Positions 3,569 through 37,400 of a stretch of DNA of 64,000 bases are shown in pieces. The stretch covers positions 1,922,001 to 1,986,000 of the forward strand of contig NZ_CP162100.1 in the NCBI RefSeq assembly GCF_040869035.1. Direction: 5' to 3'. Every line of letters starts with the position of its first letter. Position 1 is the first letter of the stretch. The DNA comes from Vibrio sp. NTOU-M3. GTDB taxonomy: Bacteria > Pseudomonadota > Gammaproteobacteria > Enterobacterales > Vibrionaceae. Below the pieces are notes generated by a model. The model did not search any database, had not been told where the DNA came from, and was given only the letters and a program-made list of their open reading frames with translations. The position numbers were made by a program, and so were the translations under genes.

Positions 3569-4190
3569 ATTTAGTATTCAAGTGATCCGTTGGCCACTGA
3601 CCCACTCTGCAACTTTACTCGATAAATGGGGAGTGACAGCCAATCAAACGACATTTATTGGTTTTTTAATTGGTTGCTTAGCGTTTCCGGCTCTTGCGAT
3701 GGAAAACTATGGACTTGCCCTTTTATTCATTGTGATGAATCGAATCGCGGACGGCCTCGATGGTGCTTTGGCACGCATTCAAGGCATTACCGATGCAGGT
3801 GGCTTTCTCGACATCAGCCTCGACTTTCTATTCTATTCTCTCATCCCATTTGGTTTTGTTGTCGCGAACCCTGAAGCTAATGCCGTTGCCGGTGCCTTTT
3901 TGATTTTCTCCTTTATCGGAACGGGGTGTAGTTTCTTAGCATTTGCTGTCATGGCAGGTAAACGTGGTATCGATAATCCGGTTTACAAACATAAGTCACT
4001 TTACTATATGAGCGGTTTAACTGAAGGGACTGAGACTATCGCTTGCTTTGTCTTATTTTGTCTCCTTCCTCAGCATTTTGCTCTGATCGCCTATATATTT
4101 GGTTCGGCTTGCTGGTTTACTACCTTTACCCGTATTTACTCAGGTTTCCATACACTCAAACAGCCAGATTCATGTGAAAAATCTGAATAG
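3558..4190 (+). CDS. ynjF: CDP-alcohol phosphatidyltransferase family protein, YnjF-like
   Basis: Integral membrane enzyme of the CDP-alcohol phosphotransferase family, 210 residues with several hydrophobic helices. The family signature with its aspartates is complete near residues 68-92: DGLDGALAR, then GGFLDISLD. These enzymes transfer a phosphatidyl group from CDP-diacylglycerol (or similar) onto an alcohol; the acceptor is not known for YnjF. The gene overlaps the ATPase gene and is the last of the ynj operon, as in enterobacteria, but why a lipid-type enzyme travels with this importer is unexplained. Confidence 0.85.
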   Translation: MLDKFSIQVIRWPLTHSATLLDKWGVTANQTTFIGFLIGCLAFPALAMENYGLALLFIVMNRIADGLDGALARIQGITDAGGFLDISLDFLFYSLIPFGFVVANPEANAVAGAFLIFSFIGTGCSFLAFAVMAGKRGIDNPVYKHKSLYYMSGLTEGTETIACFVLFCLLPQHFALIAYIFGSACWFTTFTRIYSGFHTLKQPDSCEKSE

Positions 4191-22294: not shown

Positions 22295-22747
22295 TTAATT
22301 TATTAACGATGCAACCCTATCAATAAAAATAGGCTTCTCAATTCGATCATATGTGATGGATAACCCTCCGCCTCTTAAGTGCGATTGATTTTCTTCATAT
22401 TTGACATAGTCGACAGTTTTAAAACCACCCAAGGGATGATTAAAATCAATTGTTCTTTTTTTCTTAATAACAAACTTGCCATCAATTATATTAAACCTAA
22501 CTCTAGGGAAGTAGATATAGGATGAGCGATTGATCATAAAATAATATCCTTCAACCGCCCTATCTGTAACACCATCTTTTGTTAGAATTGTTATATATGA
22601 ACCATGATTATGAATTACTTCATAACCATTTTTTAAATCTGAATCATAGTATGCTCCAATATTTTCACTGTCAATTGTAATAAACATAGAATAGATAACA
22701 AGAATCGAAAATATGGTGACATTAATAAAAAATATTTTCCTTAACAA
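22295..22747 (-). CDS. Single-pass membrane protein, possible ToxS-like partner
   Basis: 150 residues starting with TTG at 22747; a GAGAGG ribosome site lies five bases upstream, inside the end of the regulator gene. An N-terminal helix (FFINVTIFSILVIYSMFI, residues 6-23) is followed by ~125 mostly beta residues that would face the periplasm. No sequence family recognised, but size, topology and a seven-base overlap with a ToxR-like gene match the arrangement of ToxS, TcpH or VtrC. Partnership is inferred. Confidence 0.6.
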   Translation of the reverse strand: MLRKIFFINVTIFSILVIYSMFITIDSENIGAYYDSDLKNGYEVIHNHGSYITILTKDGVTDRAVEGYYFMINRSSYIYFPRVRFNIIDGKFVIKKKRTIDFNHPLGGFKTVDYVKYEENQSHLRGGGLSITYDRIEKPIFIDRVASLIN

Positions 22748-23238
22748 AACAACCTCTCATATAATGTCACTAAGAGCAATTCAAATGAAAAAAACACGAT
22801 GTTGTAATAGAAAAATTTATTATGAAAAAGGTCTGACTTTACAATATATGTATATATGGTGTTTAGATAATTTGAATGCAATTCTGTACTTTTTTTATCA
22901 ACTGGTAAATCAGAAGCAATCTCTATTTCCTCAATCGGATAAATAGGTTTATCTAGATAATACCCTACGCTACGTTTAGTCTTTATCAATTCAATATCAC
23001 AAATTTTTGACAAATGACTACGAAGGCCATTAATTAATACCCTCAATGAGTTGTTCGAAACAATTCGTCCTGCCCAGCAATCAAGTAACTCGTCTTGACT
23101 GCATGGTTCTGGATAAGACTTCATTAGCTGCTCAACAACGGCAAACTCAATATCTGTCAAAGGTGCTGTTTTAGAAAAGCTCGATTCCTCAGCACCTTGA
23201 AAAGCAATAACTTTTTCACTGTAGATTAACTGGTACAT
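22741..23238 (-). CDS. ToxR-like winged-helix regulator with C-terminal membrane anchor
   Basis: About 165 residues from the ATG at 23238 (a GTG one codon upstream is the alternative). Residues 25-105 form an OmpR/ToxR-type winged helix: LTDIEFAVVEQLMKSYPEP, the WAG turn, NSLRVLINGLRSHLSKI and the wing IKTKRSVGYYL. A linker leads to a hydrophobic segment (FFYYNIVFFSFELLLVTLY) ending within a few residues of the C-terminus, so there is essentially no periplasmic domain. The next gene supplies a membrane protein with a periplasmic domain. Likely a membrane-bound activator of nearby genes. Confidence 0.75.
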   Translation of the reverse strand: MYQLIYSEKVIAFQGAEESSFSKTAPLTDIEFAVVEQLMKSYPEPCSQDELLDCWAGRIVSNNSLRVLINGLRSHLSKICDIELIKTKRSVGYYLDKPIYPIEEIEIASDLPVDKKSTELHSNYLNTIYTYIVKSDLFHNKFFYYNIVFFSFELLLVTLYERLFC

Positions 23239-23373
23239 CACTACTTTAACTTTATTGTACTAAAAACGTTCGGACGTGAGGATATATTCCGAAGAATGAA
23301 CAACGCAAGATGCACCAGTCACATTAACAAGCTTATGACAATTTTTGAGAACTTTCTTACAAACCCGACTTAT

Positions 23374-24066
23374 TTAAGATGGAATGATACTTCCACGATG
23401 AAAATAATATCCTTGAAAGTATGTCAAATTTAAGGACTTTAATAAGTTTAGCTGTTGATAAGTCTCAACTTTTTCTACAATAATCTCTAGTCCTTTTTGT
23501 TTACATATTTCCACTTGCTTAATAAATTTATCAAGTGACATTCTTGAACTTAATGATGGTGCCTCTACCTTGGCATACGTATAACAATCAACTTCTTTAG
23601 TGATTAATCTAGGATCATCAATTCCTACTACATCATCAATTGCAAAAATAATGCCCCACTCCGTCATCTTTCTCATTTCTGCTTCAACGGCACCACATCC
23701 CATACATTCATTTCTTTCTGTAATTTCAACAACCAGTATGTGACCATTGTTTTCAAGAAACTTATGCATATCGAAAAGACAGTTTCTAATATTAAAGTCA
23801 CAGAGATTATGTCTTTCAACATTAATAAATATCTTCTTAGGGAATTTTTCAAGTGAACTTTTTAAGATATCAAAAATTGAATAAATAACTTTTCCACTTC
23901 TGATTACTTCATAAAAATCACAATACTCTCTTTTATAGCTTTTGAAATCTATGAGAATCTCACAAGCAAAATTTTCTTTATTTGAATTAAAAAGATTTTG
24001 ATAATAAAAGTTATCACCAAAACTATAACTAATGTTCCTTAATTCATTAACCTTCTCACATGTCAT
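23374..24066 (-). CDS. Stand-alone EAL-domain protein (c-di-GMP phosphodiesterase-like)
   Basis: 230 residues with an AAGGA ribosome site; almost only an EAL domain, very AT-rich. The metal and catalytic positions are kept although the text diverges: Glu36 (EIL for EAL), Asn82 (INVE), Glu114 (VVEITE), Asp144-Asp145 (AIDD), Lys166 (AKVE), Glu198 (IVEKVET) and Gln218 (FQGYYF). Loop 6, normally DDFGTGYSS, is DDVVGIDDPR, so dimer control or activity may differ. It has cysteine pairs such as CMGCG. It lies directly downstream of the giant surface-protein gene on the same strand, suggesting c-di-GMP control of adhesion; whether it cleaves or only binds c-di-GMP cannot be told. Confidence 0.78.
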   Translation of the reverse strand: MTCEKVNELRNISYSFGDNFYYQNLFNSNKENFACEILIDFKSYKREYCDFYEVIRSGKVIYSIFDILKSSLEKFPKKIFINVERHNLCDFNIRNCLFDMHKFLENNGHILVVEITERNECMGCGAVEAEMRKMTEWGIIFAIDDVVGIDDPRLITKEVDCYTYAKVEAPSLSSRMSLDKFIKQVEICKQKGLEIIVEKVETYQQLNLLKSLNLTYFQGYYFHRGSIIPS

Positions 24067-24199: not shown

Positions 24200-27100
24200 T
24201 TACTCAACCCATGAGCTTTCAATATTAACGCGTCTATTTAAGCTACGACCTTGTTGATTATCATTTGATGCAATTGGTGAAGACTCACCAAGTCCTATTG
24301 CTTCAACCAAATCTGGATTCAAACCTAATGAAGTCAAATACGCTTTGGCCGAATCAGCCCTACGTTGTGATAGACGTTGGTTATACTCATCTGAACCCGT
24401 TGCGTCTGTATGACCGTAGATTTTTACGTGATAGTCCGACTTAGATAACACCTTCTCAGCAAGAGTTTGGAGTTCGCGCTTACCATTCTCACCAAGAACC
24501 GAGCTGTCAGACTTAAAAAAGTCCACGACTGAGTTGCTGTTGAAGTTTTCAACGACAATGGTTTTTTCTTCAGTAGCCGGAATAACATCAACCTTTGTTT
24601 CAAGGTCTATGATGCGCTCTTCAATCGTGTCTAGCTGTTGCTCAACTTTAGATTTTGGTTGCTCTTTATCACCACCAAAATATCGGCCTATCAGTAAGGA
24701 GGTATTAAGCGCATCAGAGTCATATGAAATACCCTCTAACTTGAAGAACCAAGCTGAATTCGTTGGACGATATTCAACACCACCACCAAAATTTACCTGA
24801 ACTTTGTTTTTTTGTTCGAAAGTAATACGGTCATCAGAAGTCGAGTTAAACATCGAGCTTGCGCCAATTTTTCCATATACATTCCATTTTCGGTCTGTTG
24901 TATACGGATAAAAATAGGAGCCCAATGCAATTGATGGCACGTAATACGAAATAGATTCCTCTCCTTCAAACGCCGCGACTCCAGATTGACTATATTTGTT
25001 CACAAGTTTCGCATCACCTAGTCCTGCATATCTTGCCTCAGCGAACCAACGTGGTGACAGTTGATACCCAACAGCGACCTGCCAGCTTGGCTTATAGCTC
25101 GCAGATTCGTTATACCAGCCTTGAGATTCCCCTTCAGGCGCTAATCGAGAAATACCAATACCACTCTCTAGTTTCCAACAACCTTCAAATTCACCATCTT
25201 CATACAGGTATCCACAAGTTGTCGCGTGGACCATTGGTGTTAAGAGAGCCAAGCCTGCTCCAAGTAGGATATAAACCTTATTTTTCATGCTAGAAACACT
25301 TCTCACTATTAAAGTCATTAATACAAATAATCCCGTAAGTAAATTCAGGCTGCCGCCACCTCCTGCACCGTGACCGGACACTGCCGTCTCCATCGATGTC
25401 ACTTCATATGGACGGTTATTGCCCAAATTAGGATCCGTCAGATATTCATCCTTATCGCTGTACCCATCGTTATCGCTGTCTTTATCTTGGAAATCTCTCA
25501 GCCCATCTGAGTCGGTATCAGCCAGAATCAAGGCATGCGCAAAGTAGTTATTACTTCCCAACCCAAAGCCATCACGGTCAATTGAGTCAACAATGCCATC
25601 GTTATCTGAGTCAGCTTTCTCATCCAGTTGTCCGTTCAAAAGACGGTTAATGTTCGTAATCAAGGTCACTTCATTAATGCCTACTGCTTCAAACAGATCT
25701 GGAATACCATCGTTGTCACTGTCTATCTCCTGACTGTCGATAACTCCATCGTTATCGCTATCCATAAGAGGTTTTCCAACCAACCTGTCGTCCATTCCGT
25801 CACCGTTCAAGTCGATCATGTCAACGATGTAACCTGCTTTAGCGGTATCAAATGAAGGGAAGTGCTCTAGCAAATCAGGAATACCATCATTGTCTGAGTC
25901 CAAATCCATCGCATCGATCAGTCCATCACCATCTGTGTCCATATTTCCTTCGATGTCATTTGGAATACCATCGTTATCCATATCCAAGTCGAATGAATCA
26001 GGGATACCATCGTTGTCAAAGTCGTCTGTATTGGCACGGTCAATCGGTGCTGAACCATAACCGGTAGGGAAACCATCGACGATATCTGGTAAACCATCGC
26101 TATCTGAATCGACATGTGTATCATCGATCATGCCATCGCGATTTAGGTCCAGCTCTTGATCAACAACTTCTTCGGTCATGCCTTTGGACTCATAGATGTC
26201 AAAGATGCCATCGTCATTACTATCAAGATCTAGGTAGTCATATTCACCATCACCATCCGTGTCGAGTGGCTGTGTGATCACAGGGCTATCAAAGTCTGCA
26301 ATTGCATTGTTGTCCTCATCTTTGCCGCCAGATTCGATAACGTCTGGAATACCATCATTGTCACTATCCAAATCGGTATAATCAGGTAGCGCATCGTTGT
26401 CTGAATTGACCGGTGTTGTAATGAAGTTCGCAAATGCTAGGAAGCTTCTTGAGGTTGTCGAGGTAAAGCTATTACCTTGCGCCTCTATCTGGTCACTAAT
26501 TCCATCATTATCCGAATCGGTATCGATGTAGTTTGCCAGTCCATCTAAATCGAAGTCCGCCGTACCTTCAACTTCATCTGGAATCAAATCGCCATCGCTA
26601 TCGAGGTCGACATAATCAGGCGTACCATCGCCGTCGGTATCTCGTGGTTGATAGCGGTCATCAATACCGTCACCATTGGCATCGACACCTCCGGTGAAAT
26701 CAACATCTAATGCGTCATCGATTCCATCTCTGTCTTGATCGACACCTTTCATTTCAGGAGCTGGGGTAATACCTGCGCTCTCAACGCTGTCTGGAATACC
26801 GTCATTGTCAGAGTCCGTGTTTATGTAGTTACTTCCCTGCTCCAGCACTGATGGAATACCATCGCCATCATCATCTTGGTCTAGGTAATTCGGAATACCA
26901 TCACCATCGGTATCGATACAAGGAACACCTGTGTTGTTGCAATCCCACTCCTCAAGGTCCGTACGGCCATCAAAGTCACTGTCGCGAATTGTTCCACCTA
27001 CAACAACAGGCGTACTCAAACCTGAAGACTGAAGTTTTTGCGCCATGCTGTAGAAGCTAAAGGCAAGCTTAGTGCTATCAACTGACTGACTAGCATTACA

Positions 27101-30100
27101 GCTGAAGTGGTTAACTAACTCAGAGTTGTTGTATCCCTTGCTGATCGTGCTTTCACAGATTTTCTCGCCATTGACGATAGTGACCGAGCCATTCTCATAA
27201 TCACTTTCACCCTCAAACAAACTCGAACGTACATCGTACATCGTAGGTGGAACCCACTCATTGTCAGGGTCAATCACATGAGTAAACACGTTCATCGCAA
27301 CTTGATCAGCAAACTGTAAAACGTTCACTTTTGAATTAGGTGCTAGGTTGGCACTCAACACACATTGCCATGTCCCTAATGGATTCACGGTCGTCTTACA
27401 GAGTGTCGTATTGGCATCATCATAGACGGTGATATCGGCAGCAAACGCACCTGTACCACTGACCTCTTTTCCAAGCGTGTTAAACAACATTGCAGGCGTC
27501 GTCTTCATGCTATATGCACCAGATACGACTTGCGTTCCAGCCACCAAAGATGTGTTTCCAGCACTATCAGTAACTGTTGCTTCCACCACTTGTGAGTCAC
27601 TCAACATGACCGTTGGATTACATTGCCAGAAACCAAATTCGTCGATCGTTTGCTGTGCACAAACTGCCGCACCATTTGCCAATTTCACAGATACTTTGGT
27701 TTGTGGCTCACCCAATCCTTTAATCACTTGTTGTACAGTAACCGGATAAAAGATCGGCGGATTAGGTCTGTGAGTATCAATGGTCACTTCATCAAGCGTT
27801 GCATCCTCATCAGATACATTGCCAAATGAATCAACTGCATACAGTTCCACATCGTAACGGTTGTCTTCCAAGGAGTTAAAGTCAACCGGACTGCCTGAAC
27901 TATCGATTCCATTAGCGGTATCAACTGTCCATTTACCCGCAGTCGAACGCGTTGTCGCAGTTGCTGTTGTCACAAACTGCACGTTGTTGATAGTTACAAA
28001 TACTTGGTTTCCTGCATCCGACGTTCCCGTCAGCACCGGCGTATTAATGTTCGTTGTTGATTTATCAATTGTTGGCGTCGTAGGTTTCTTCGTGTTGACA
28101 TCAAAAGTCACCGTATTTGATACCACATTGTTATTCCCAGCCGCATCAGTGAATTTACCTTCGGCTACAGATAGAGAAACTGAACCAGCAAACTCATCTT
28201 TTGGCACAACGACTGCTTCATAATTTTTCCCTGAACCCGTGAAACTGGTAATGCTACCCACCGTAATCACCAAATCATCTACGGTGAAATCAGTCGCCGC
28301 TTCACTTAACACAATGGTGATGGTCGACGTATCGCCTTTTTTCAGCTTGCTCTTATCAGCAGTGATAGCAATGGTGGGTTTTACTGTGTCGATTGTTAAC
28401 GTTAGCTTGGTTTCCGCGCCGTTGGTGTTACCTGCAGCATCTGAGAATTTGCTCGCTGCAACGGTGATCACACCATTTGCTATACTGCCTGACGTCGGGG
28501 TAAATACAGCGGTATATGCATCTCCGGAGCCATCGAAATCAGTTAATGTACCGCCACTTACGGTGACATCATTTGCAACGAAGTCTTGAGAGGCTTCGCT
28601 AAGCTTAAAGGTAATATCCGCTGTTTCATTGGCTTTTAGTTGCGTCTTGTTGGACGTAATCGAAATTGTGGGAGCTACCGTATCCACTGCTAGCGTCAAG
28701 CTTGCACCAGCTAGGTTAGTATTTCCTGCTGCATCAGTGAATTTGCTTGCCGCAACGGTGATTACGCCAGATTTATTGCTGTTAGTCGTTGGGGTAAATT
28801 CCGCCGAATAGGTTGTACCTGAACCCGTTAACGTCCCTAGTGTACCGCCTGAAACTGTAATATCTGCAGATTCAAAGTCCGTTGAAGCCTCGCTTAAGGT
28901 AAAGGTAACTTGAGCTGTTTCACCACCCTTCAACGCTGAAACATCAGCAGTAATCGCTATCGTTGGTACAACGCTATCAATGCTCAAAGTTAGGCTGTCA
29001 CCTGCACCATTTAAGTTGCCCGCCGCATCACTAAACTTACTCTTGGCAACACTAATCACACCATCGCTTGTGCTGTTCGCTGTTGGTGTAAATTCAGCGG
29101 AGTAACTTGTGCCACTGCCTGTTAACGTACCTAACGAGCCACCTGTAACCGTAATGTCTCCCGACGCAAAATCTGTCGCGGCTTCACTGAGAGTAAATGT
29201 AATTTGTGCCTTTTCTCCCGCTTTCAGCGCAGTTTTGTCAGAGCTAATATCAATCGTTGGCAGCACACTATCGACAGTCAGAGTAATACTCGCTCCTGAC
29301 GTATTGAGGTTGCCCGCTGCATCAGAGAACTTATTCGTACCGACGCTGATCACGCCATCGGTTGTGCTATCAGCCGTTGGGGTAAAGGTAATACTGTAGC
29401 TCTTACCACTACCACTTAGCGTGCTCAATGTACCACCAGTTACACTGATATCATTAGCTTCGAAATCTGCTGATGCCTCACTTAACGTAAAGGTAATCTG
29501 TGCCGTTTCACCATTTTTAACGCTTGATTTATCAGCGGAAACACTAATAGTTGGAGGCAGTGTATCAATGCTTAAGGTCAAGCTTGCACCCACCGCATTC
29601 GCATTACCCGCACTATCGGTAAACTTGCTTGTACCGACACTAATTACACCATCTTTAGTGCTACTTGCTGTTGGGGTAAAGATTGCGGTGTAGCTCTTAC
29701 CACTGCCCGTCAGCGTACCTAAGGTACCCCCTTCAACTTCAATATCTTCTGCCTTAAAGTCCGAAGCACTCTTAGTCAACGTAAAGGTAATTTCAGCAGT
29801 CTCACTGTTTTTTAGTGACAAGCTATCTGAAGTAATGGTGATGCCAGGTAATACACTGTCAATCGTCAGCGTCACACTTGCACCTGTCGTATTAAGGTTA
29901 CCAGCCGCATCACTGAATTTACTTCCTACAACACTCACCACACCATCATCTGTGCTGTTCGCTTTCGGAGTGAAAGTAGCAGTGTACGATTTTCCTGTAC
30001 CAGTAAAGCCGCTTAATGCACCTCCTGTCACCGTTACATCGTTAGCAACAAAATCTGTCGACGATTCACTCAACGTGAAAGTAATCGTCGCGGTCTCACC

Positions 30101-33100
30101 ATTTTTCAAGGTCGATTTATCGGAGGTAATGCTGATGGTTGGCACCACAGTATCCACCGTCAACGTCAAGCTATCACCAGTGCTGTTAGCATTACCGGCT
30201 GCATCACTGAACTTGTTTGCAATAACGCTGATAACACCAGCTGTGGTGCTGTCATCACTCGGCGTGAACTCGGCACTGTAGCTTGTACCACTACCAGTAA
30301 GGGCACCCAAGGTACCGCCACTGACCGTGATGTCATTAGCCACAAAGTCGGTTGCAGACTCACTTAACGTGAAGGTAATTTGAGCAGTTTCTCCTGCTTT
30401 CAGTGCAGATTTATCTGACGTAATGGCAATGGTTGGCACAACACTGTCCACCGTGAGTGTCAGTGTGTCCCCTTTACTATTTGAGTTACCTGCCGCATCG
30501 GTAAATGTGCCCGCAGCAACGGTAATAACACCGTTCTTAGTGCTTGATGCTGTCGGGGTAAAGGTTGCGCTATAGCTGGTACCACTTCCTGTAACCGCAC
30601 CCAAGGTGCCTCCGGTTGTGGTCACATCTTCAGCTTTAAAATCATCTGCCGCTTCACTTAAGGTAAAAGTAATTTGAGCAGACTCACCCGCTTTTAACGC
30701 TGACTTATCTGAGGTTATCGCAATGGTAGGTGCCACCGTATCGACACTGATGGTCAATGTATGACCCGTTGCGTTTTGGTTGCCTGATGCATCGGTAAAG
30801 GTATTTGCAGCAACGGTAATCACACCATTCGCGACACTATCGACTTTCGGCGTGAATTCGGCGGTGTATGTCGTCCCTGTCCCTGTAAGGGTACCCAACG
30901 AACCACCGGTTACCGTGATATCACTGGCGATAAAGTCAGATGCACTCTTACTTAACGTAAAGGTAATCGTTGCCTTTTCACCACGCTTTAGCGCTGACTT
31001 ATCTGACGTGATCTCAATGGTCGGAACCACGGTATCAATCGTCAGTGTAAAGCTTGCCCCTGTCGCATTCGGGTTTCCGGCTGCATCCGTAAACTTGCTC
31101 GCCGCAACACTAATCACACCATCCGCATCGCTGTTGGTTTTTGGCGTAAACTCTGCTGTGTAGGTTGTTCCAGAGCCTGTTAAGGTCCCAAGCGTACCAC
31201 CAGTCACTGTAATGTCTGTGGAAGTAAAATCTGTCGACGCTTCACTTAATGTAAAGGTCACTTCAGCGGTTTCACCACCTTTCAAGTTTGATGCATCTGC
31301 CGTGATAGTAATCGTCGGTACTACGGTGTCAATCGTCAAGGTTAAACTGGCGCCATCCGCATTCAGGTTTCCAGCTGCATCGCTGAAGCTGTCAGACGCC
31401 ACGGTAATAACGGCATCCTTTGTGCTGTTGGCTGTTGGAGTAAACTCAGCGGTATAGACTTTTTTCGCCGTATCGGCACTTAGGGCGCCTAAGGTTCCTC
31501 CCGTTACCGTAATATCGTCTTTTTGAACAAAGTCTGTCGCTGCTTCACTTAAGGTGAAGGTTACTGTGGTTTTCTCACCCGCTTTCAATGCCGTTTTTTC
31601 AGCTGTGATCGCAACCGTTGGAACCACGGTATCAATGGTCAGCGTAAGGCTCGCACCCGCTGCGTTCGGGTTGCCCGCTGCATCGGTAAAGCTGTCAGAC
31701 GCAACCGTGATCACGGCATCCGCTGTACTGCCTGCTTTTGGTGTGAATTCAGCGGTGTACACTTTTTTCGCCGTATCAGCGCTTAATGTCCCTAAGCTAC
31801 CGCCAGTTACCGTAATGTCATCATTGAGCGTAAAGTCCGTTGCCGCTTCACTTAAAGTGAAGGTGACCGTGGTTTTCTCGCCCGCTTTTAGCGCAGTTTT
31901 TCCTGCGGAGATAGCAACGGTTGGCACTACGGTATCAATGCTTAAAGTTAAGCTTGCCCCCACCGCATTCGCGTTACCTGCACTGTCGGTAAACTTGCTT
32001 GTACCAACACTAATCACACCATCTTTGATACTGCTTGCTGTTGGGGTAAAGGTTGCGGTGTAGCTCTTACCACTGCCTGTTAGCGTACCTAAGGTACCCC
32101 CTTCAACTTCAATATCTTCTGCCTTAAAGTCCGAAGCACTCTTAGTCAACGTAAAGGTAATTTCAGCAGTCTCACTGTTTTTTAGTGACAAGCTATCTGA
32201 AGTAATGGTGATGCCAGGTAATACACTGTCAATCGTCAGCGTCACACTTGCACCTGTCGTATTAAGGTTACCAGCCGCATCACTGAATTTACTTCCTACA
32301 ACACTCACCACACCATCATCTGTGCTGTTCGCTTTCGGAGTGAAAGTAGCAGTGTACGATTTTCCTGTACCAGTAAAGCCGCTTAATGCACCTCCTGTCA
32401 CCGTTACATCGTTAGCAACAAAATCTGTCGACGATTCACTCAACGTGAAAGTAATCGTCGCGGTCTCACCATTTTTCAAGGTCGATTTATCGGAGGTAAT
32501 GCTGATGGTTGGCACCACAGTATCCACCGTCAACGTCAAGCTATCACCAGTGCTGTTAGCATTACCGGCTACATCACTGAACTTGTTTGCAATAACGCTG
32601 ATAACACCAGCCGTAGTGCTGTCATCACTCGGTGTGAACTCGGCACTGTAGCTTGTACCGCTGCCAGTAAGGACACCCAAGGTACCACCACTGACCGTGA
32701 TGTCGTTAGCCACAAAGTCGGTTGCAGACTCACTTAACGTGAAGGTAATTTGTGCAGTTTCTCCTGCTTTCAGTGCTGATTTATCTGACGTAATGGCAAT
32801 GGTCGGCACAACACTGTCCACAGTAAGTGTCAGTGTGTCACCTTTAATATTTGAGTTACCCGCCGCATCGGTAAATGTGCTTGCAGCAACGGTAATAACA
32901 CCGTTCTTAGTGCTTGATGCTGTCGGGGTAAAGGTTGCGCTATAGCTGGTACCACTTCCTGTAACCGCACCCAAGGTGCCTCCAGTTGTGGTTACATCTT
33001 CAGCTTTAAAATCATCTGCCGCTTCACTTAGGGTAAAGGTAATTTGAGCGGACTCACCCGCTTTTAACGCTAACTTATCTGAGGTTATCGCAATGGTAGG

Positions 33101-36100
33101 TGCCACCGTATCGACGCTGATGGTCAATGTATGACCCGTTGCGTTTTGGTTGCCTGATGCATCGGTAAAGGTATTTGCAGCAACGGTAATCACACCATTC
33201 GCGACACTATCGACTTTCGGCGTGAATTCGGCGGTGTATGTCGTCCCTGTCCCTGTAAGGGTACCCAGCGAGCCACCAGTTACCGTGATATCACTGGCGA
33301 TAAAGTCAGATGCACTCTTACTTAACGTAAAGGTAATCGTTGCCTTTTCACCTCGCTTTAGCGCTGACTTATCTGACGTGATCTCAATGGTCGGAACCAC
33401 GGTATCAATCGTCAGTGTAAGGCTTGCCCCTGTCGCATTCGGGTTTCCGGCTGCATCCGTAAACTTGCTCGCCGCAACACCAATCACACCATCAGCATCA
33501 CTGTTGGTCTTTGGTGTAAACTCTGCTGTGTAGGTTGTTCCAGAGCCTGTTAAGGTCCCAAGCGTACCACCAGTCACTGTAATGTCTGTGGAGGTAAAAT
33601 CTGTCGACGCTTCACTTAATGTAAAGGTCACTTCAGCGGTTTCACCACCTTTCAAGCTTGATGCATCTGCCGTGATAGCAATCGTCGGTACCACGGTGTC
33701 AATCGTCAGGGTTAAACTGGCACCAGCCGCATTCAAGTTTCCAGCGGCATCGCTGAAACTGTCGGACGCAACAGTGATAACAGCATCCTTTGTGCTGTTA
33801 GCTGTTGGAGTAAACTCAGCGGTATAGACTTTTTTCGCCGTATCGGCACTTAGGGCACCTAAGGTTCCTCCCGTTACCGTAATATCGTCTTTTTGAACAA
33901 AGTCTGTCGCTGCTTCACTTAAGGTGAAGGTTACTGTGGTTTTCTCACCTGCTTTCAATGCTGTTTTGCCAGCTGTGATGGCAACCGTTGGAACCACGGT
34001 ATCAATGGTCAGCGTAAGGCTCGCACCCGCTGCGTTCGGGTTGCCCGCCGCATCGGTAAAGCTGTCGGAAGCAACCGTGATCACGGCATCCGCTGTACTG
34101 CCCGCTTTTGGTGTAAATTCAGCGGTGTACACTTTTTTCGCCGTATCTGCGCTTAATGTCCCTAAGCTACCGCCAGTTACCGTAATGTCATCATTGAGCG
34201 TAAAGTCCGTTGCCGCTTCACTTAAAGTGAAGGTGACCGTGGTTTTCTCGCCTGCTTTTAGCGCAGTTTTTCCTGCGGAGATAGCAACGGTTGGCACTAC
34301 GGTATCGATACTTAAAGTTAAGCTCGCACCCACAATATTTGGGTTGCCTGCGGGGTCATTGAAGCTATCGGCTGCAACACTAATGACCGCATCTGTCGTG
34401 CTGTTGGCTTTTGGCGTAAATTCTGCGGTATAGACTTTGTTTGCAGCGTCAGCGCTAAGTGTACCTAATGTACCACCAGTAACCGTAATATCGTCTTTTT
34501 GAACAAAATCTGTCGCTGCTTCACTTAAGGTGAAAGTAACGGTGGTTTTTTCACCAGCTTTGAGAGCCGTTTTCCCTGCTGTGATCGCAATGGTTGGCGA
34601 GAGTGCATCAATCGTAAATGCTACCGACGGTTGATTGGCATTGTTGTTACCGGCAGCGTCAGTGAACGAATCTGCTTTGATTGCAACACTACCATTGCCT
34701 GAGAAGTTGTCTGTAGCTGTAAAGGTGGCACTGTAGTTTTTATCAGAGCCAGAAAAACCTGAGATCACCCCACCAACAGCTGATAGATCAGCCAATGCAA
34801 AGTTCGTTGAACTTTCACTCAAAACCATGGTTAACGTCGTTGATTCACCTTTCTTCAGTGTTGTTTTACCTGCAGACAGTTGAATCGTCGGTTTGGTGAC
34901 GTCTTCAAATGTCACCTCTAACTGGTAAGGAGACGACGTATTGTTTTGGATCGCTTCTCCATTAACGGTTGCACTGATCTTTGTTTTTGTTTCTAGGGTT
35001 TCACTGGTCGATAACGTGACCGAGTAAGTACCGTCTTTATTGTCCGTAACCGAGGTGACAGAGACTAAATTATTATCAACAGAAAACGTTACCTCGTCAC
35101 CACTCTTCCCGACATATTTATCGTCTTCAGTAATGCTCGTTACCGTTGCAACAATCTGTCCTGTGGTCGGTGTTTTTGATTTATCGACAGTAAGTTTGGT
35201 TTTGACTGGGTCGGTAGGATATCGGTTTAGGGAATAACGAGTATTTTTCTCTAATGTTCCTGATGGTAATGTCGATAAGTCTGGCGCAGTTGTATCTTTT
35301 GCTCCTCCGAAAATACTATCAACTTGATAACTTTCAATACTATCGACTGTCATCAAACCGGTAAGGTCTTTCGCTTCCTCCCTTACGGTATACGTCCCTT
35401 TGAGGCGATTAAAGCGCATACGAATAATGCCACGTTCATCGTTGGTTTGAGAGTTGTAACCAGCAAATGTTCCCCCAACCATTAAACTGCCGTCTTTCAT
35501 CAACGTCAGCGCGTGGACGTCTGTACCACCACCAACAAACTTTCCGCTACCAAGTGTTTTCATGAACGGCTGGTTAACCGTTCCGTCTTCCATATTGAAT
35601 ACCAGTAAGCCACCATTACCTTGTGCAGCTGGCCATCTATTATGCGCACCAACAAATAACTTACCTTCTACAATTGCAAATGCTTCTGCTGAATAGCCAG
35701 CACGAATCGACGTTGTTGCCCAGTTATCTTTGTTGTGTGTTCCATCTTTCTTTAACGCATAAACATTACTTGTACTAACGCCAGGGATCGACATATTGTA
35801 GCCAGAAACCACAATACCTTCCTGAGCACTTTTCGGCAGGACCAAAACATCGGAAACAAAGGCCGAAGTTACCGCTGAGAGAAAAGTCTCATCAACCGTT
35901 CCATCCATATTGAGGCGCCAAATCGGGCGTGCGGTATTTCTACCTTTATAGACTACATAGGGGTTATAACCGGTTATATAAAGCTTATCATCAGTCGTTG
36001 TTGCCGTTTCATTGTCATCGACTCTGACTGTTTTTACTGCTTGGGCATTAGAGTTTGTTGAAACTGGTGAGGTAAAACCCGTATTGATCGTGCCATCAAG

Positions 36101-36940
36101 ATTTAGGCTCACAATTTTATTGTGGTTTTCCCCAGAAACTTGTGTGAAGTTACCTGTCACATAGAGCTTTGAGTCATGCTCCAACACTGGTGAGTTTGGT
36201 GAATAGACTGCATAGTTTTTCTCACCAATAGCAGCATTAAAAGTTCGACTAGAGCCATTCTTAGTAAGCTTATCCATAAAGGTCGTATCAATGGAAAAAT
36301 CACTATTGAATTGAACTAAGTAGTCGTAATTACCATTACCGTTATAGTTATAGAATTCACCGGCAACAATTATTTTTCCTTCACTTGTTTCCGTCAGGCT
36401 GGTGACTTCACCATTAAATGTTGGGCTGTTTGTAGAGAATGAGCCACCAAAGGTTCTTTTTACCGTCCCATCTGGATTAACCAATACCAAATGACGAGTG
36501 GCAACGCCTTCATATGACGTAAAATATCCACCAATCAGAATATCACCATTTGAAAGCTCTAATATATCCCAAACACCAGTATTATCATTAACACCATTTA
36601 GATTTGGTGTATTCGGAACACCAAAACTCTCGTCTAATAATAGACTCGCTGAACTGGTTAAATTTATTGTTGTTTTATGAGCATCAGGGCCTGTATCCAG
36701 TTTAAGCGTAACTTTAGATGGTGATGTTGCATCATCTGATGGTGATATAAATGAGCTAAAGTCGGCGTATATATCAATTTTATCGCCTTCATTATACATT
36801 CCACTATCATTTCCCCCTGAAATTGATTCTAACTTAGGCTTATTTGCAGCATAAACATCAAATGTGCTCATCATTAAAAACAACACAAAGAAAAGTACTA
36901 TATTTTTATTATACATATTATTTATACCAGTGGGTTTCAT
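24200..36940 (-). CDS. Giant Ig-repeat surface protein fused to an OmpA-type protein
   Basis: 4,246 residues from the ATG at 36940, chosen because GAGG precedes it by six bases and it gives a signal peptide ending DVYA-ANKP. Order: delta-60-like repeats with xNxDGTxxxxF cores (~80-510); an invasin-type Ig domain (~550-680); 23 Ig-like repeats of 98-101 residues, each ending DAAGN..TLTIDTVVP (~682-2950); three more Ig-like modules (~2950-3300); thrombospondin type-3 repeats with DxDxDG (~3318-3836); GHGAGGGGS plus a hydrophobic segment (3856-3880), a GlyGly-CTERM-like signal; a second signal peptide from Met3885 (MKNKVYILLGAGLALL, ending MVHA); an OmpA-like beta-barrel; and an OmpA peptidoglycan-binding domain (HTDATGSDEYNQRLSQRRA) to the end. 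Role inferred as adhesion or biofilm matrix. No type I secretion signal seen. Confidence 0.88.
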   Translation of the reverse strand: MKPTGINNMYNKNIVLFFVLFLMMSTFDVYAANKPKLESISGGNDSGMYNEGDKIDIYADFSSFISPSDDATSPSKVTLKLDTGPDAHKTTINLTSSASLLLDESFGVPNTPNLNGVNDNTGVWDILELSNGDILIGGYFTSYEGVATRHLVLVNPDGTVKRTFGGSFSTNSPTFNGEVTSLTETSEGKIIVAGEFYNYNGNGNYDYLVQFNSDFSIDTTFMDKLTKNGSSRTFNAAIGEKNYAVYSPNSPVLEHDSKLYVTGNFTQVSGENHNKIVSLNLDGTINTGFTSPVSTNSNAQAVKTVRVDDNETATTTDDKLYITGYNPYVVYKGRNTARPIWRLNMDGTVDETFLSAVTSAFVSDVLVLPKSAQEGIVVSGYNMSIPGVSTSNVYALKKDGTHNKDNWATTSIRAGYSAEAFAIVEGKLFVGAHNRWPAAQGNGGLLVFNMEDGTVNQPFMKTLGSGKFVGGGTDVHALTLMKDGSLMVGGTFAGYNSQTNDERGIIRMRFNRLKGTYTVREEAKDLTGLMTVDSIESYQVDSIFGGAKDTTAPDLSTLPSGTLEKNTRYSLNRYPTDPVKTKLTVDKSKTPTTGQIVATVTSITEDDKYVGKSGDEVTFSVDNNLVSVTSVTDNKDGTYSVTLSTSETLETKTKISATVNGEAIQNNTSSPYQLEVTFEDVTKPTIQLSAGKTTLKKGESTTLTMVLSESSTNFALADLSAVGGVISGFSGSDKNYSATFTATDNFSGNGSVAIKADSFTDAAGNNNANQPSVAFTIDALSPTIAITAGKTALKAGEKTTVTFTLSEAATDFVQKDDITVTGGTLGTLSADAANKVYTAEFTPKANSTTDAVISVAADSFNDPAGNPNIVGASLTLSIDTVVPTVAISAGKTALKAGEKTTVTFTLSEAATDFTLNDDITVTGGSLGTLSADTAKKVYTAEFTPKAGSTADAVITVASDSFTDAAGNPNAAGASLTLTIDTVVPTVAITAGKTALKAGEKTTVTFTLSEAATDFVQKDDITVTGGTLGALSADTAKKVYTAEFTPTANSTKDAVITVASDSFSDAAGNLNAAGASLTLTIDTVVPTIAITADASSLKGGETAEVTFTLSEASTDFTSTDITVTGGTLGTLTGSGTTYTAEFTPKTNSDADGVIGVAASKFTDAAGNPNATGASLTLTIDTVVPTIEITSDKSALKRGEKATITFTLSKSASDFIASDITVTGGSLGTLTGTGTTYTAEFTPKVDSVANGVITVAANTFTDASGNQNATGHTLTISVDTVAPTIAITSDKLALKAGESAQITFTLSEAADDFKAEDVTTTGGTLGAVTGSGTSYSATFTPTASSTKNGVITVAASTFTDAAGNSNIKGDTLTLTVDSVVPTIAITSDKSALKAGETAQITFTLSESATDFVANDITVSGGTLGVLTGSGTSYSAEFTPSDDSTTAGVISVIANKFSDVAGNANSTGDSLTLTVDTVVPTISITSDKSTLKNGETATITFTLSESSTDFVANDVTVTGGALSGFTGTGKSYTATFTPKANSTDDGVVSVVGSKFSDAAGNLNTTGASVTLTIDSVLPGITITSDSLSLKNSETAEITFTLTKSASDFKAEDIEVEGGTLGTLTGSGKSYTATFTPTASSIKDGVISVGTSKFTDSAGNANAVGASLTLSIDTVVPTVAISAGKTALKAGEKTTVTFTLSEAATDFTLNDDITVTGGSLGTLSADTAKKVYTAEFTPKAGSTADAVITVASDSFTDAAGNPNAAGASLTLTIDTVVPTVAITAEKTALKAGEKTTVTFTLSEAATDFVQKDDITVTGGTLGALSADTAKKVYTAEFTPTANSTKDAVITVASDSFSDAAGNLNADGASLTLTIDTVVPTITITADASNLKGGETAEVTFTLSEASTDFTSTDITVTGGTLGTLTGSGTTYTAEFTPKTNSDADGVISVAASKFTDAAGNPNATGASFTLTIDTVVPTIEITSDKSALKRGEKATITFTLSKSASDFIASDITVTGGSLGTLTGTGTTYTAEFTPKVDSVANGVITVAANTFTDASGNQNATGHTLTISVDTVAPTIAITSDKSALKAGESAQITFTLSEAADDFKAEDVTTTGGTLGAVTGSGTSYSATFTPTASSTKNGVITVAAGTFTDAAGNSNSKGDTLTLTVDSVVPTIAITSDKSALKAGETAQITFTLSESATDFVANDITVSGGTLGALTGSGTSYSAEFTPSDDSTTAGVISVIANKFSDAAGNANSTGDSLTLTVDTVVPTISITSDKSTLKNGETATITFTLSESSTDFVANDVTVTGGALSGFTGTGKSYTATFTPKANSTDDGVVSVVGSKFSDAAGNLNTTGASVTLTIDSVLPGITITSDSLSLKNSETAEITFTLTKSASDFKAEDIEVEGGTLGTLTGSGKSYTAIFTPTASSTKDGVISVGTSKFTDSAGNANAVGASLTLSIDTLPPTISVSADKSSVKNGETAQITFTLSEASADFEANDISVTGGTLSTLSGSGKSYSITFTPTADSTTDGVISVGTNKFSDAAGNLNTSGASITLTVDSVLPTIDISSDKTALKAGEKAQITFTLSEAATDFASGDITVTGGSLGTLTGSGTSYSAEFTPTANSTSDGVISVAKSKFSDAAGNLNGAGDSLTLSIDSVVPTIAITADVSALKGGETAQVTFTLSEASTDFESADITVSGGTLGTLTGSGTTYSAEFTPTTNSNKSGVITVAASKFTDAAGNTNLAGASLTLAVDTVAPTISITSNKTQLKANETADITFKLSEASQDFVANDVTVSGGTLTDFDGSGDAYTAVFTPTSGSIANGVITVAASKFSDAAGNTNGAETKLTLTIDTVKPTIAITADKSKLKKGDTSTITIVLSEAATDFTVDDLVITVGSITSFTGSGKNYEAVVVPKDEFAGSVSLSVAEGKFTDAAGNNNVVSNTVTFDVNTKKPTTPTIDKSTTNINTPVLTGTSDAGNQVFVTINNVQFVTTATATTRSTAGKWTVDTANGIDSSGSPVDFNSLEDNRYDVELYAVDSFGNVSDEDATLDEVTIDTHRPNPPIFYPVTVQQVIKGLGEPQTKVSVKLANGAAVCAQQTIDEFGFWQCNPTVMLSDSQVVEATVTDSAGNTSLVAGTQVVSGAYSMKTTPAMLFNTLGKEVSGTGAFAADITVYDDANTTLCKTTVNPLGTWQCVLSANLAPNSKVNVLQFADQVAMNVFTHVIDPDNEWVPPTMYDVRSSLFEGESDYENGSVTIVNGEKICESTISKGYNNSELVNHFSCNASQSVDSTKLAFSFYSMAQKLQSSGLSTPVVVGGTIRDSDFDGRTDLEEWDCNNTGVPCIDTDGDGIPNYLDQDDDGDGIPSVLEQGSNYINTDSDNDGIPDSVESAGITPAPEMKGVDQDRDGIDDALDVDFTGGVDANGDGIDDRYQPRDTDGDGTPDYVDLDSDGDLIPDEVEGTADFDLDGLANYIDTDSDNDGISDQIEAQGNSFTSTTSRSFLAFANFITTPVNSDNDALPDYTDLDSDNDGIPDVIESGGKDEDNNAIADFDSPVITQPLDTDGDGEYDYLDLDSNDDGIFDIYESKGMTEEVVDQELDLNRDGMIDDTHVDSDSDGLPDIVDGFPTGYGSAPIDRANTDDFDNDGIPDSFDLDMDNDGIPNDIEGNMDTDGDGLIDAMDLDSDNDGIPDLLEHFPSFDTAKAGYIVDMIDLNGDGMDDRLVGKPLMDSDNDGVIDSQEIDSDNDGIPDLFEAVGINEVTLITNINRLLNGQLDEKADSDNDGIVDSIDRDGFGLGSNNYFAHALILADTDSDGLRDFQDKDSDNDGYSDKDEYLTDPNLGNNRPYEVTSMETAVSGHGAGGGGSLNLLTGLFVLMTLIVRSVSSMKNKVYILLGAGLALLTPMVHATTCGYLYEDGEFEGCWKLESGIGISRLAPEGESQGWYNESASYKPSWQVAVGYQLSPRWFAEARYAGLGDAKLVNKYSQSGVAAFEGEESISYYVPSIALGSYFYPYTTDRKWNVYGKIGASSMFNSTSDDRITFEQKNKVQVNFGGGVEYRPTNSAWFFKLEGISYDSDALNTSLLIGRYFGGDKEQPKSKVEQQLDTIEERIIDLETKVDVIPATEEKTIVVENFNSNSVVDFFKSDSSVLGENGKRELQTLAEKVLSKSDYHVKIYGHTDATGSDEYNQRLSQRRADSAKAYLTSLGLNPDLVEAIGLGESSPIASNDNQQGRSLNRRVNIESSWVE
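25223..25375 (-). other. Internal GlyGly-CTERM-like signal followed by an internal signal peptide
   Basis: Codons 25375-25300 encode GHGAGGGGSLNLLTGLF and a hydrophobic stretch ending in Arg, the tripartite layout of GlyGly-CTERM signals cut by rhombosortase. Thirteen residues later codons 25288-25223 encode a classical signal peptide (MKNK, hydrophobic core, VHA cleavage site). A possible weak ribosome site (GAGAAG) precedes the ATG at 25288. Both signals lie in one uninterrupted frame. Confidence 0.7.
25430..26985 (-). repeat. Thrombospondin type-3 calcium-binding repeat region
   Basis: Dozens of DSDNDGIPD, DTDGDGIPN and similar units over about 520 residues. Each Asp-rich loop binds calcium in known TSP3 proteins, so the segment should become a rigid stalk in seawater. 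The DNA shows matching short near-repeats (GGAATACCATCGTTGTC-like), which are coding and not a CRISPR. Confidence 0.88.
28090..34895 (-). repeat. Array of 23 Ig-like repeats
   Basis: Twenty-three consecutive units averaging 98.6 codons. Consensus features: PTIAITSDKSALKAGET at the start, ITFTLSEAATDF, ITVTGGTLG, FTPxxxSxxxGVI, and F(S/T)DAAGNxN near the end. Units 2-4 and 11-12 have a 101-codon form with LSADTAKKVYTAEF. The first and last units are the most divergent, typical of arrays that grow from the middle. Confidence 0.92.
29562..34301 (-). repeat. 2,370-bp tandem duplication of eight Ig repeats
   Basis: Block 29562-31931 and block 31932-34301 are near-identical at an offset of exactly 2,370 bases (790 codons = six 98-codon plus two 101-codon units). 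By eye about 460 bases from about 29730 are identical in both copies, with scattered single substitutions elsewhere. Block edges are accurate to a few tens of bases. Confidence 0.85.
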
Positions 36941-37400
36941 ATGCAGCCTCACGAAACATCCCCTCAATACGCGCATAGTACAGAATTCGAAAAGACACTA
37001 GAATAGACATTCCACCAAAATAAAAAGATATAAACCGTTTTAACAATAAATAACATTAACGATGATTAATTAATTTAAAAACACAAGATTAATAATCAAT
37101 TAATAAAGATAATCACAAAACATAACTAACTGATATTTAAGAAAAATAATCAAATTAATGGTATTTAACAAATAATAACTAACACTAAAGAAAAAAAACC
37201 ATAAAATGAATTAAAAACACAATTAAGCAATCACAATCATTTATGTGCCACAATAAAGAAAATTAAGTAAAAAAATCAAATTATAAACGGATTACTATAA
37301 AATATTAACTATATAGATGTTGCTAAAATGGATATAAGCATCTGGATAATAAAGGAGATAAACATCTGGACAATGATGTTAGTCTAGTCAGGAGACAAAT
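36941..37400. promoter_or_regulatory. Very AT-rich divergent intergenic region
   Basis: 460 bases between the giant gene and the divergent winged-helix gene without an ORF. By hand count only 20 of 120 bases in 37021-37140 are G or C. It is full of short A and T tracts and TTAAT words and must hold both promoters. Such composition is typical of xenogeneic silencing by H-NS and of ToxR-type regulation; neither is shown by the sequence alone. Confidence 0.6.

Follow-up and report, generated by a model that had tools for sequence, protein, structure and literature searches.

The window analysed here is a 64,000-nucleotide stretch of the Vibrio sp. NTOU-M3 genome (contig NZ_CP162100.1, positions 1,922,001 to 1,986,000), and its subject is one gene on the minus strand in which a giant surface adhesin and an OmpA-type protein share a single reading frame. 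The open frame (24200-36976) is stop-free over 4258 amino acids, and its likely start, ATG 36940, is preceded by GAGG six bases upstream. Residue numbers are counted from 36976 and run 12 higher than those of an earlier note on this DNA, which were counted from ATG 36940. The observation of that note, that the frame joins an adhesin to a complete OmpA-type protein, is confirmed. The protein has the following features.

24200..36976, minus strand: single reading frame, 4258 amino acids, likely start ATG 36940.
36848..36940, minus strand: N-terminal Sec signal peptide (MKPTGINNMYNKNIVLFFVLFLMMSTFDVYA), predicted from the sequence only.
28097..34909, minus strand: Big_12 Ig-like repeat stalk, 23 stretches over threshold (Pfam; outer limits set by eye).
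25427..27109, minus strand: TSP3-type Asp-rich repeats (sequence; limits set by eye; homologous stretches in family f8).
25301..25363, minus strand: GlyGly-CTERM-like internal tag (GGGGS, hydrophobic segment, Arg), residues 3872-3892 (sequence).
25277..25300, minus strand: short basic linker SVSSMKNK, expected on the cytoplasmic side (sequence).
25223..25288, minus strand: internal signal peptide MKNKVYILLGAGLALLTPMVHA, residues 3897-3918 (sequence).
24677..25177, minus strand: eight-stranded outer-membrane beta-barrel (Pfam OMP_b-brl; AlphaFold; Foldseek matches to E. coli OmpA).
24233..24520, minus strand: OmpA peptidoglycan-binding domain, residues 4153-4248 (Pfam PF00691; solved relatives, e.g. 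OprF 5u1h).

The C-terminal 362 residues scored 76.5 bits with the Pfam family OmpA, over a cut-off of 27.2, and 34.8 bits with OMP_b-brl, for which the cut-off is 28.7. For a segment of 410 residues, with an alignment of 43 rows, AlphaFold modelled two helices (31-45 and 49-62), eight strands and the OmpA domain, with a mean predicted local distance difference test value (pLDDT) of 80.1 and a predicted template modelling score (pTM) of 0.56; the best solved matches of this model in Foldseek were E. coli OmpA and OmpA-type peptidoglycan-binding domains. The OmpA half thus belongs to the OmpA family, with both the domain and the eight-stranded barrel present. Two narrower identities were rejected, since the TraB model NF033763 reached 59.5 bits against a cut-off of 700 and the PdsO model TIGR03789 matched via the OmpA domain alone (52.9 bits; cut-off 152.2). 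PA14 was absent from the 10 Pfam families found in the full protein (E ≤ 0.01), and DUF5122 (delta-60) stretches were present in the adhesin part. A single-sequence search with the OmpA half returned OmpA-domain proteins, mostly with less than 40% of the query aligned, and the flanks of such generic matches were uninformative, given the ubiquity of this domain and the lack of orientation of the loci.

At the junction of the two halves, GGGGS starts at residue 3872 and is followed by a hydrophobic segment (3877-3891), Arg3892, SVSS and MKNK, so that the Gly/Ser motif, hydrophobic segment and basic residues of a GlyGly-CTERM tag are all present (GGGGS-LNLLTGLFVLMTLIV-R, linker SVSSMKNK). A second hydrophobic core then leads to VHA (3916-3918) and to TTCGYLYE from residue 3919. 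The methionine at which the earlier note had the signal peptide start, its Met3885, is Met3897 in our numbering, at base 25288. Among the families compared with the junction at E ≤ 10, TIGR03501 (GlyGly-CTERM) was the sole one listed; MYXO-CTERM was not among the matches, and JDVT-CTERM with its protease MrtJ was discarded for the window, with no NF033191 match at the junction (E ≤ 10) and no MrtJ match in the genome (G000; E ≤ 1e-8). About 366 residues follow the tag, which therefore does not occupy the extreme C-terminus.

The same frame was found on another contig in a second strain, Vibrio sp. TRT 17S01 (record P0003, 3445 amino acids), whose junction is letter-identical and whose annotated start is the ATG corresponding to 36916. 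This strain held the only close orthologue found. The best other match of the OmpA half in 148 genomes of the genus had 33% identity. At 1e-25, the TSP3 section had no match but itself in 227 genomes.

Fused loci were surveyed with two profiles. TSP3 homologues in ten genomes of family f8 gave 13 loci as the starting set, 12 of which held the whole design in one frame. Profile A1, built from fused loci, covered junction and barrel, and A3 the barrel only, without the junction columns. A1 matched 19 of 40 genomes of family f8, 42 of 369 of the class and 31 of 227 of the genus of the window, many of the last being ordinary short OmpA genes; of the 369 class genomes, 65 were matched by A3. All 92 A1 matches in the class besides that of the window were examined, as were the extra A3 matches that exceeded about 75 bits or lay in long frames, plus two weak ones, some 30 weak matches in short frames being left out. 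Rows were dropped when they were repeat stretches of other rows (L234 and L267, of L214 and L216; with L267 a further separate barrel of 435 residues, G945:C217:14075, was also lost) or ended at contig ends (L143, L177, L229, L262, L275). L076, whose TSP3 adhesin ends in a terminal tag and is not accompanied by a barrel, was dropped too. A total of 80 fused loci was obtained from 60 genomes (19 family codes) and one metagenome-assembled genome of Woeseia: 62 from the class and f8 samples, 17 from the genus Vibrio and the Woeseia locus, which had the full design. The last came from a scan of named genomes that gave three loci; those of Niastella and Longitalea, in which the match spanned roughly just the OmpA domain, were not counted. 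At least 29 of the 369 class genomes (that of the window included) and at least 16 of the 227 genus genomes carry a fused locus. Within the genus of the window, several other kinds of adhesin (L289-L305) have the same junction design.

By eye, all 80 fused loci showed a hairpin pattern: a motif that is Gly-rich or resembles JDVT comes before a hydrophobic core, and a basic linker connects this core to a second one. Under a fixed rule, both hydrophobic 15-residue windows scored at least 1.4 in 74/80 loci, the linker carried two or more Lys/Arg residues in all 80 and was net positive in 79, a glycine motif preceded the first core in 79 and a small residue-x-Ala sequence followed the second in 78. 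The one net-negative, glycine-less row (L305) was mis-parsed at its junction and by eye equals L302-L304; the hairpin of 43 residues is letter-identical in L302-L305. The signal-peptidase-like ending was clear in most loci and weakest in L163, L172, L297 and L298. The hairpin was not forced by the search model, as five long-frame loci found by A3 alone also carry it. By contrast, P0004-P0008, five long proteins that are of other kinds but have an OmpA domain, all lack a pair of such cores around a basic linker. No ATG was found in the linker of 54/80 fused loci, and no ATG, GTG or TTG in 25/80, under a rule that begins close to where the first hydrophobic window ends and leaves start codons inside that segment uncounted. 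Hairpin codons of 11 chosen pairs of relatives gave proportions of synonymous (pS) and non-synonymous (pN) differences of 0.39 and 0.10 (ratio 0.26, uncorrected), and over a 43-codon stretch four loci of the genus Vibrio differed pairwise by 4-8 synonymous and zero non-synonymous changes. These values indicate that the hairpin is constrained at the level of the protein.

In relatives, the two halves also occur as separate adjacent genes, a point that the earlier note had proposed to check. The class and f8 samples yielded 133 barrel rows, of which 62 were fused, 36 flagged as separate and directly behind a tagged adhesin, 30 otherwise separate and 5 cut by contig ends; two of the 36 (L214, L270) look false, and two that were missed (L191, L198) were added by eye for the tree. 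In such sister loci, an adhesin with a terminal tag lies next to an OmpA gene with its own start. A tree of 98 barrels required at least 15 changes between the fused and the paired form, 10 of them forced by supported branches, and assigned the window to a supported group with 23 fused and 2 paired members; it was a quick tree with long branches that meet, and it was used for the change count and this one group. From these rows and switches, fused and paired loci are one system in two genetic forms, in which every fusion seen retains both putative processing signals. The gene fusion by stop loss that the earlier note gave as an alternative thus probably stands as an evolutionary origin, although not as a defect.

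Three further observations concern the sister loci. The fused L174 (G796) and the separate L184 (G669) have very close barrels, with end branches of 0.05 and 0.06, and could, as a recent fusion or split, show how the switch takes place. L214, from a single genome, holds a tandem pair of OmpA-barrel genes, with 51 bases between the open frames. At eight JDVT-CTERM loci (L150, L164, L168, L169, L171, L182, L186, L213), the tagged adhesin and mrtJ flank a separate gene for an OmpA barrel, whereas passages of PMC11980579 describe a MrtJ neighbourhood of two genes only, MrtJ and its target.

The window genome encodes one rhombosortase over the cut-off (TIGR03902, 169.6 bits; cut-off 84), an enzyme whose presence the earlier note had proposed to check. 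Its translation holds GLSG and, later, a histidine in AHLAG, which we take to be catalytic. Elsewhere the genome holds seven sites that exceed the GlyGly-CTERM cut-off, and it encodes a type II secretin (543 bits). Protease and secretin tests were run on 42 of the 60 fused genomes, leaving out 15 other Vibrio genomes, G754, G762 and G869, and on 20 controls, the first complete class genomes without an A1 match (two less than 90% complete and one of 0.4 Mb were skipped). Rhombosortase exceeded its cut-off in 41/42 fused genomes, in 17/19 genomes with separate barrels only and in 6/20 controls; for 41/42 against 6/20 the Fisher p-value was 2e-8, although the controls were unmatched for size and kinship and the p-values overstate independence. 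The sole fused genome missing the enzyme (G593) is 55% complete. The secretin of the type II secretion system passed in 38/42 fused genomes compared with 11/20 controls.

When 57 junctions were scanned at E ≤ 10, TIGR03501 matched 31, the most of any family, and JDVT-CTERM matched 5, four of which were identified while the fifth was not among 20 singly scanned. These four fused loci (L155, L173, L175, L208) exceeded the JDVT-CTERM cut-off, and MrtJ exceeded its own in all four of their genomes as opposed to 5/38 other fused genomes (p 0.001). In several genomes with separate OmpA genes (e.g. G805, G671, G637, G899, G905, G658), mrtJ lies within about 1.5 kb behind the OmpA gene. The tag thus changes together with the enzyme, as expected of a working internal sorting signal.

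The best explanation, and in our judgement a probable one, is that the gene encodes a polyprotein, one chain that comprises a giant surface adhesin as well as the OmpA-type outer-membrane protein dedicated to it as a partner; this interpretation of the earlier note is supported by the rhombosortase gene, the separate adjacent genes of relatives, the unchanged frame in TRT 17S01 and the hairpin kept in all 80 loci, including the many that lack a linker ATG. The N-terminal signal peptide would send the adhesin through Sec, the internal Gly-rich, hydrophobic and basic segment would stop the transfer, and the next hydrophobic segment would restart it as an internal signal peptide. The pattern shared by the 80 loci would then correspond to an inner-membrane hairpin with its basic loop inside. 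Rhombosortase, whose gene is present, may cut at the glycines, and a phosphoethanolamine-containing moiety could be added at the new C-terminus, as reported for VesB, in which, according to passages of PMC6219818, cleavage by rhombosortase leaves the second glycine exposed and an adduct containing glycerophosphoethanolamine is formed. Signal peptidase I would cut after VHA and release the OmpA part. The adhesin would presumably reach the surface via the type II secretion system, while the barrel would be inserted in the outer membrane via the beta-barrel assembly machinery (BAM) and the OmpA domain would grip peptidoglycan. The fusion would thereby set a 1:1 supply of proteins that elsewhere are made from two adjacent genes.

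A number of results weigh against this explanation. In the window, the order of motifs described by the earlier note stands, but the assignment to GlyGly-CTERM fell short, TIGR03501 giving 7.4 bits where the curated cut-off is 15.5, which is the chief weak point at the window site; the tag was not among the 10 GlyGly-CTERM matches of the genome scan (E ≤ 10), and its hydrophobic segment is without the proline that VesB requires for rhombosortase according to part of PMC11389362. Of 31 internal tags scanned singly, the failing one of the window among them, only 8 passed TIGR03501 (L078, L222, L289, L295, L296, L300, L192, L238); the set was non-random, ten tags having been chosen for their odd look, of which four pass JDVT-CTERM. 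The control protein P0006 has two windows of at least 1.4 with an acidic stretch between them, which means that hydrophobicity alone is no proof, and the control genome G608 gave a weak A3 barrel match (51.2 bits). Four fused genomes had no secretin over the cut-off: G593, which is 55% complete, G837 and G772, which have pieces of it, and G905, which is 94% complete and has neither excuse. According to passages of PMC13393428, the tag is functional on unrelated proteins, yet in V. cholerae it is insufficient for passage of the outer membrane and a second secretion signal is required; none was identified in the adhesin of the window. The limits given above for the linker count and the control genomes point the same way. 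Direct support comes from the sequence pattern, its conservation and gene content, whereas every cut and every location, the enzyme that acts on the adhesin side in the window and the 1:1 ratio are inferred.

Among the alternatives, the one that fares best, though still unlikely, keeps the polyprotein and assigns the adhesin-side cut to another protease, such as GlpG or a housekeeping enzyme, the tag of the window being no true rhombosortase signal. It would account for the low TIGR03501 scores of this tag and of 22/30 other internal tags (four of the 22 being JDVT-type); VesB is cleavable by GlpG in V. cholerae (passages of PMC11389362), and a second rhomboid-like match, of 35.1 bits, was found in the window genome. 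It sits poorly with the near-constant presence of rhombosortase in the fused genomes tested and with the genus of the window itself, in which 4/6 scanned internal tags pass TIGR03501 (L289, L295, L296 and L300 pass; L292 and L302 fail).

Improbable as well is internal initiation, in which ribosomes would restart at ATG 25288 and make the OmpA protein alone, the missing stop codon being incidental. In its favour, this ATG, which in the window also counts against a polyprotein, coincides exactly with the start of the signal peptide and has a weak purine stretch (gagaag) upstream, and the OmpA gene of the sister loci has a start of its own. As a general explanation, however, it fails in the loci whose linker offers no ATG, let alone those with no alternative start codon, and it leaves the protein-level constraint on the hairpin aside; read-through would in any case yield a fused chain in need of cutting. 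An uncut, tethered adhesin, with the whole chain intact and the OmpA barrel as its anchor, is very improbable. Long OmpA-domain proteins without a hairpin do exist (P0004-P0008), but the 80 fused loci all have one, and in 78 of them its end is of the signal-peptidase type. A barrel preceded by two helices in the inner membrane, as it would be here, is expected to be blocked from transfer to BAM. A stop codon deleted by an assembly or base-calling error, as the existence of separate-gene relatives might suggest, is scarcely credible, because the frame and junction are unchanged in TRT 17S01 and the fused form recurs at 79 further loci.

The nearest published case found for the polyprotein is MXAN_5598 of Myxococcus xanthus, in which, according to passages of PMC11980579, a large adhesin region, an internal MYXO-CTERM tag, a barrel and an OmpA domain share one open reading frame; its authors suggest that two genes have fused and that the N-terminal part is processed, and liken it to the overlapping traA and traB. 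It differs in relying on MYXO-CTERM and the myxosortase MrtX, whereas the tags of the window and its kin are GlyGly-CTERM-like or JDVT-CTERM. In those passages, MXAN_5598 is called an atypical configuration and no internal signal peptide is mentioned, while 80 loci with two-gene sisters and co-occurring matching proteases are described here. Compared with this single myxobacterial protein, what is new is the involvement of two other sorting systems, the spread over many Gammaproteobacteria, the two-gene sisters and the matching proteases.

TraA and TraB of M. xanthus likewise combine a tagged surface protein with a partner that has a signal peptide, a barrel and an OmpA domain. Their genes overlap by four bases (passages of PMC3325183 and PMC12045341) and 1:1 TraA:TraB complexes are reported (passages of PMC12045341). 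They differ in being two genes, in the MYXO-CTERM tag and in the PA14/Cys-rich TraA, and the OmpA half of the window fails the TraB model. By analogy, the window protein is best read as acting like a TraA/TraB pair in one chain, the pairing of adhesin and barrel being seen both as fusion and as adjacency among the 133 barrel rows. The VesB-type substrates of rhombosortase share the Gly-rich motif, the hydrophobic helix and the basic residues, along with a rhombosortase and a type II secretion system in the genome; their tag lies at the extreme C-terminus (passages of PMC3237569), while that of the window lies inside the chain, ahead of a second exported protein. The JDVT-CTERM/MrtJ system (NF033191/NF033192) has its tag in the same internal position in its four fused loci, but MrtJ is a CPBP glutamic protease (passages of PMC11980579) and the tag is not that of the window. 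PdsO is alike by name alone, as the OmpA-like partner of a sorting-enzyme system. In the parts consulted of the literature on rhombosortase, GlyGly-CTERM and JDVT-CTERM, no internal GlyGly-CTERM followed by OmpA was found.

Two further observations concern the stalk and the surroundings of the gene. About 790 residues, some eight Ig domains, are duplicated in tandem with 98% identity (29606-34294, minus strand; residues 895-1667 and 1685-2457). Counted from the common start, the TRT 17S01 record is 793 residues shorter than the window protein, so stalk length probably varies between strains. Directly downstream lie genes for an EAL-domain protein (23374-24066, minus strand) and a protein with a DNA-binding domain of the response-regulator type (22741-23241, minus strand), neighbours that may tie the adhesin to cyclic-di-GMP control.

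Taken beyond the window, the data incline us, with moderate confidence, towards a general bacterial class of hairpin polyproteins, in which a surface protein would be co-translated with its outer-membrane partner. An internal sorting tag together with a likewise internal signal peptide would link the two until a sorting protease and signal peptidase separate them in the inner membrane. The design would be used with rhombosortase, with MrtJ and, in the published MXAN_5598, with a myxosortase, and it would have been fused and split many times since its parts act as a 1:1 pair. Because C-terminal sorting tags have been described and sought at the ends of proteins, those in internal positions readily escape notice; the named records bear the label 'Ig-like domain-containing protein' or 'OmpA family protein'. 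An evolutionary prediction is that the type of tag and the type of protease should change together. If the cuts are true, a polyprotein system would extend across many Gammaproteobacteria, and the outer-membrane partner of many tagged adhesins would be named, which would give a handle on their fixation at the surface.

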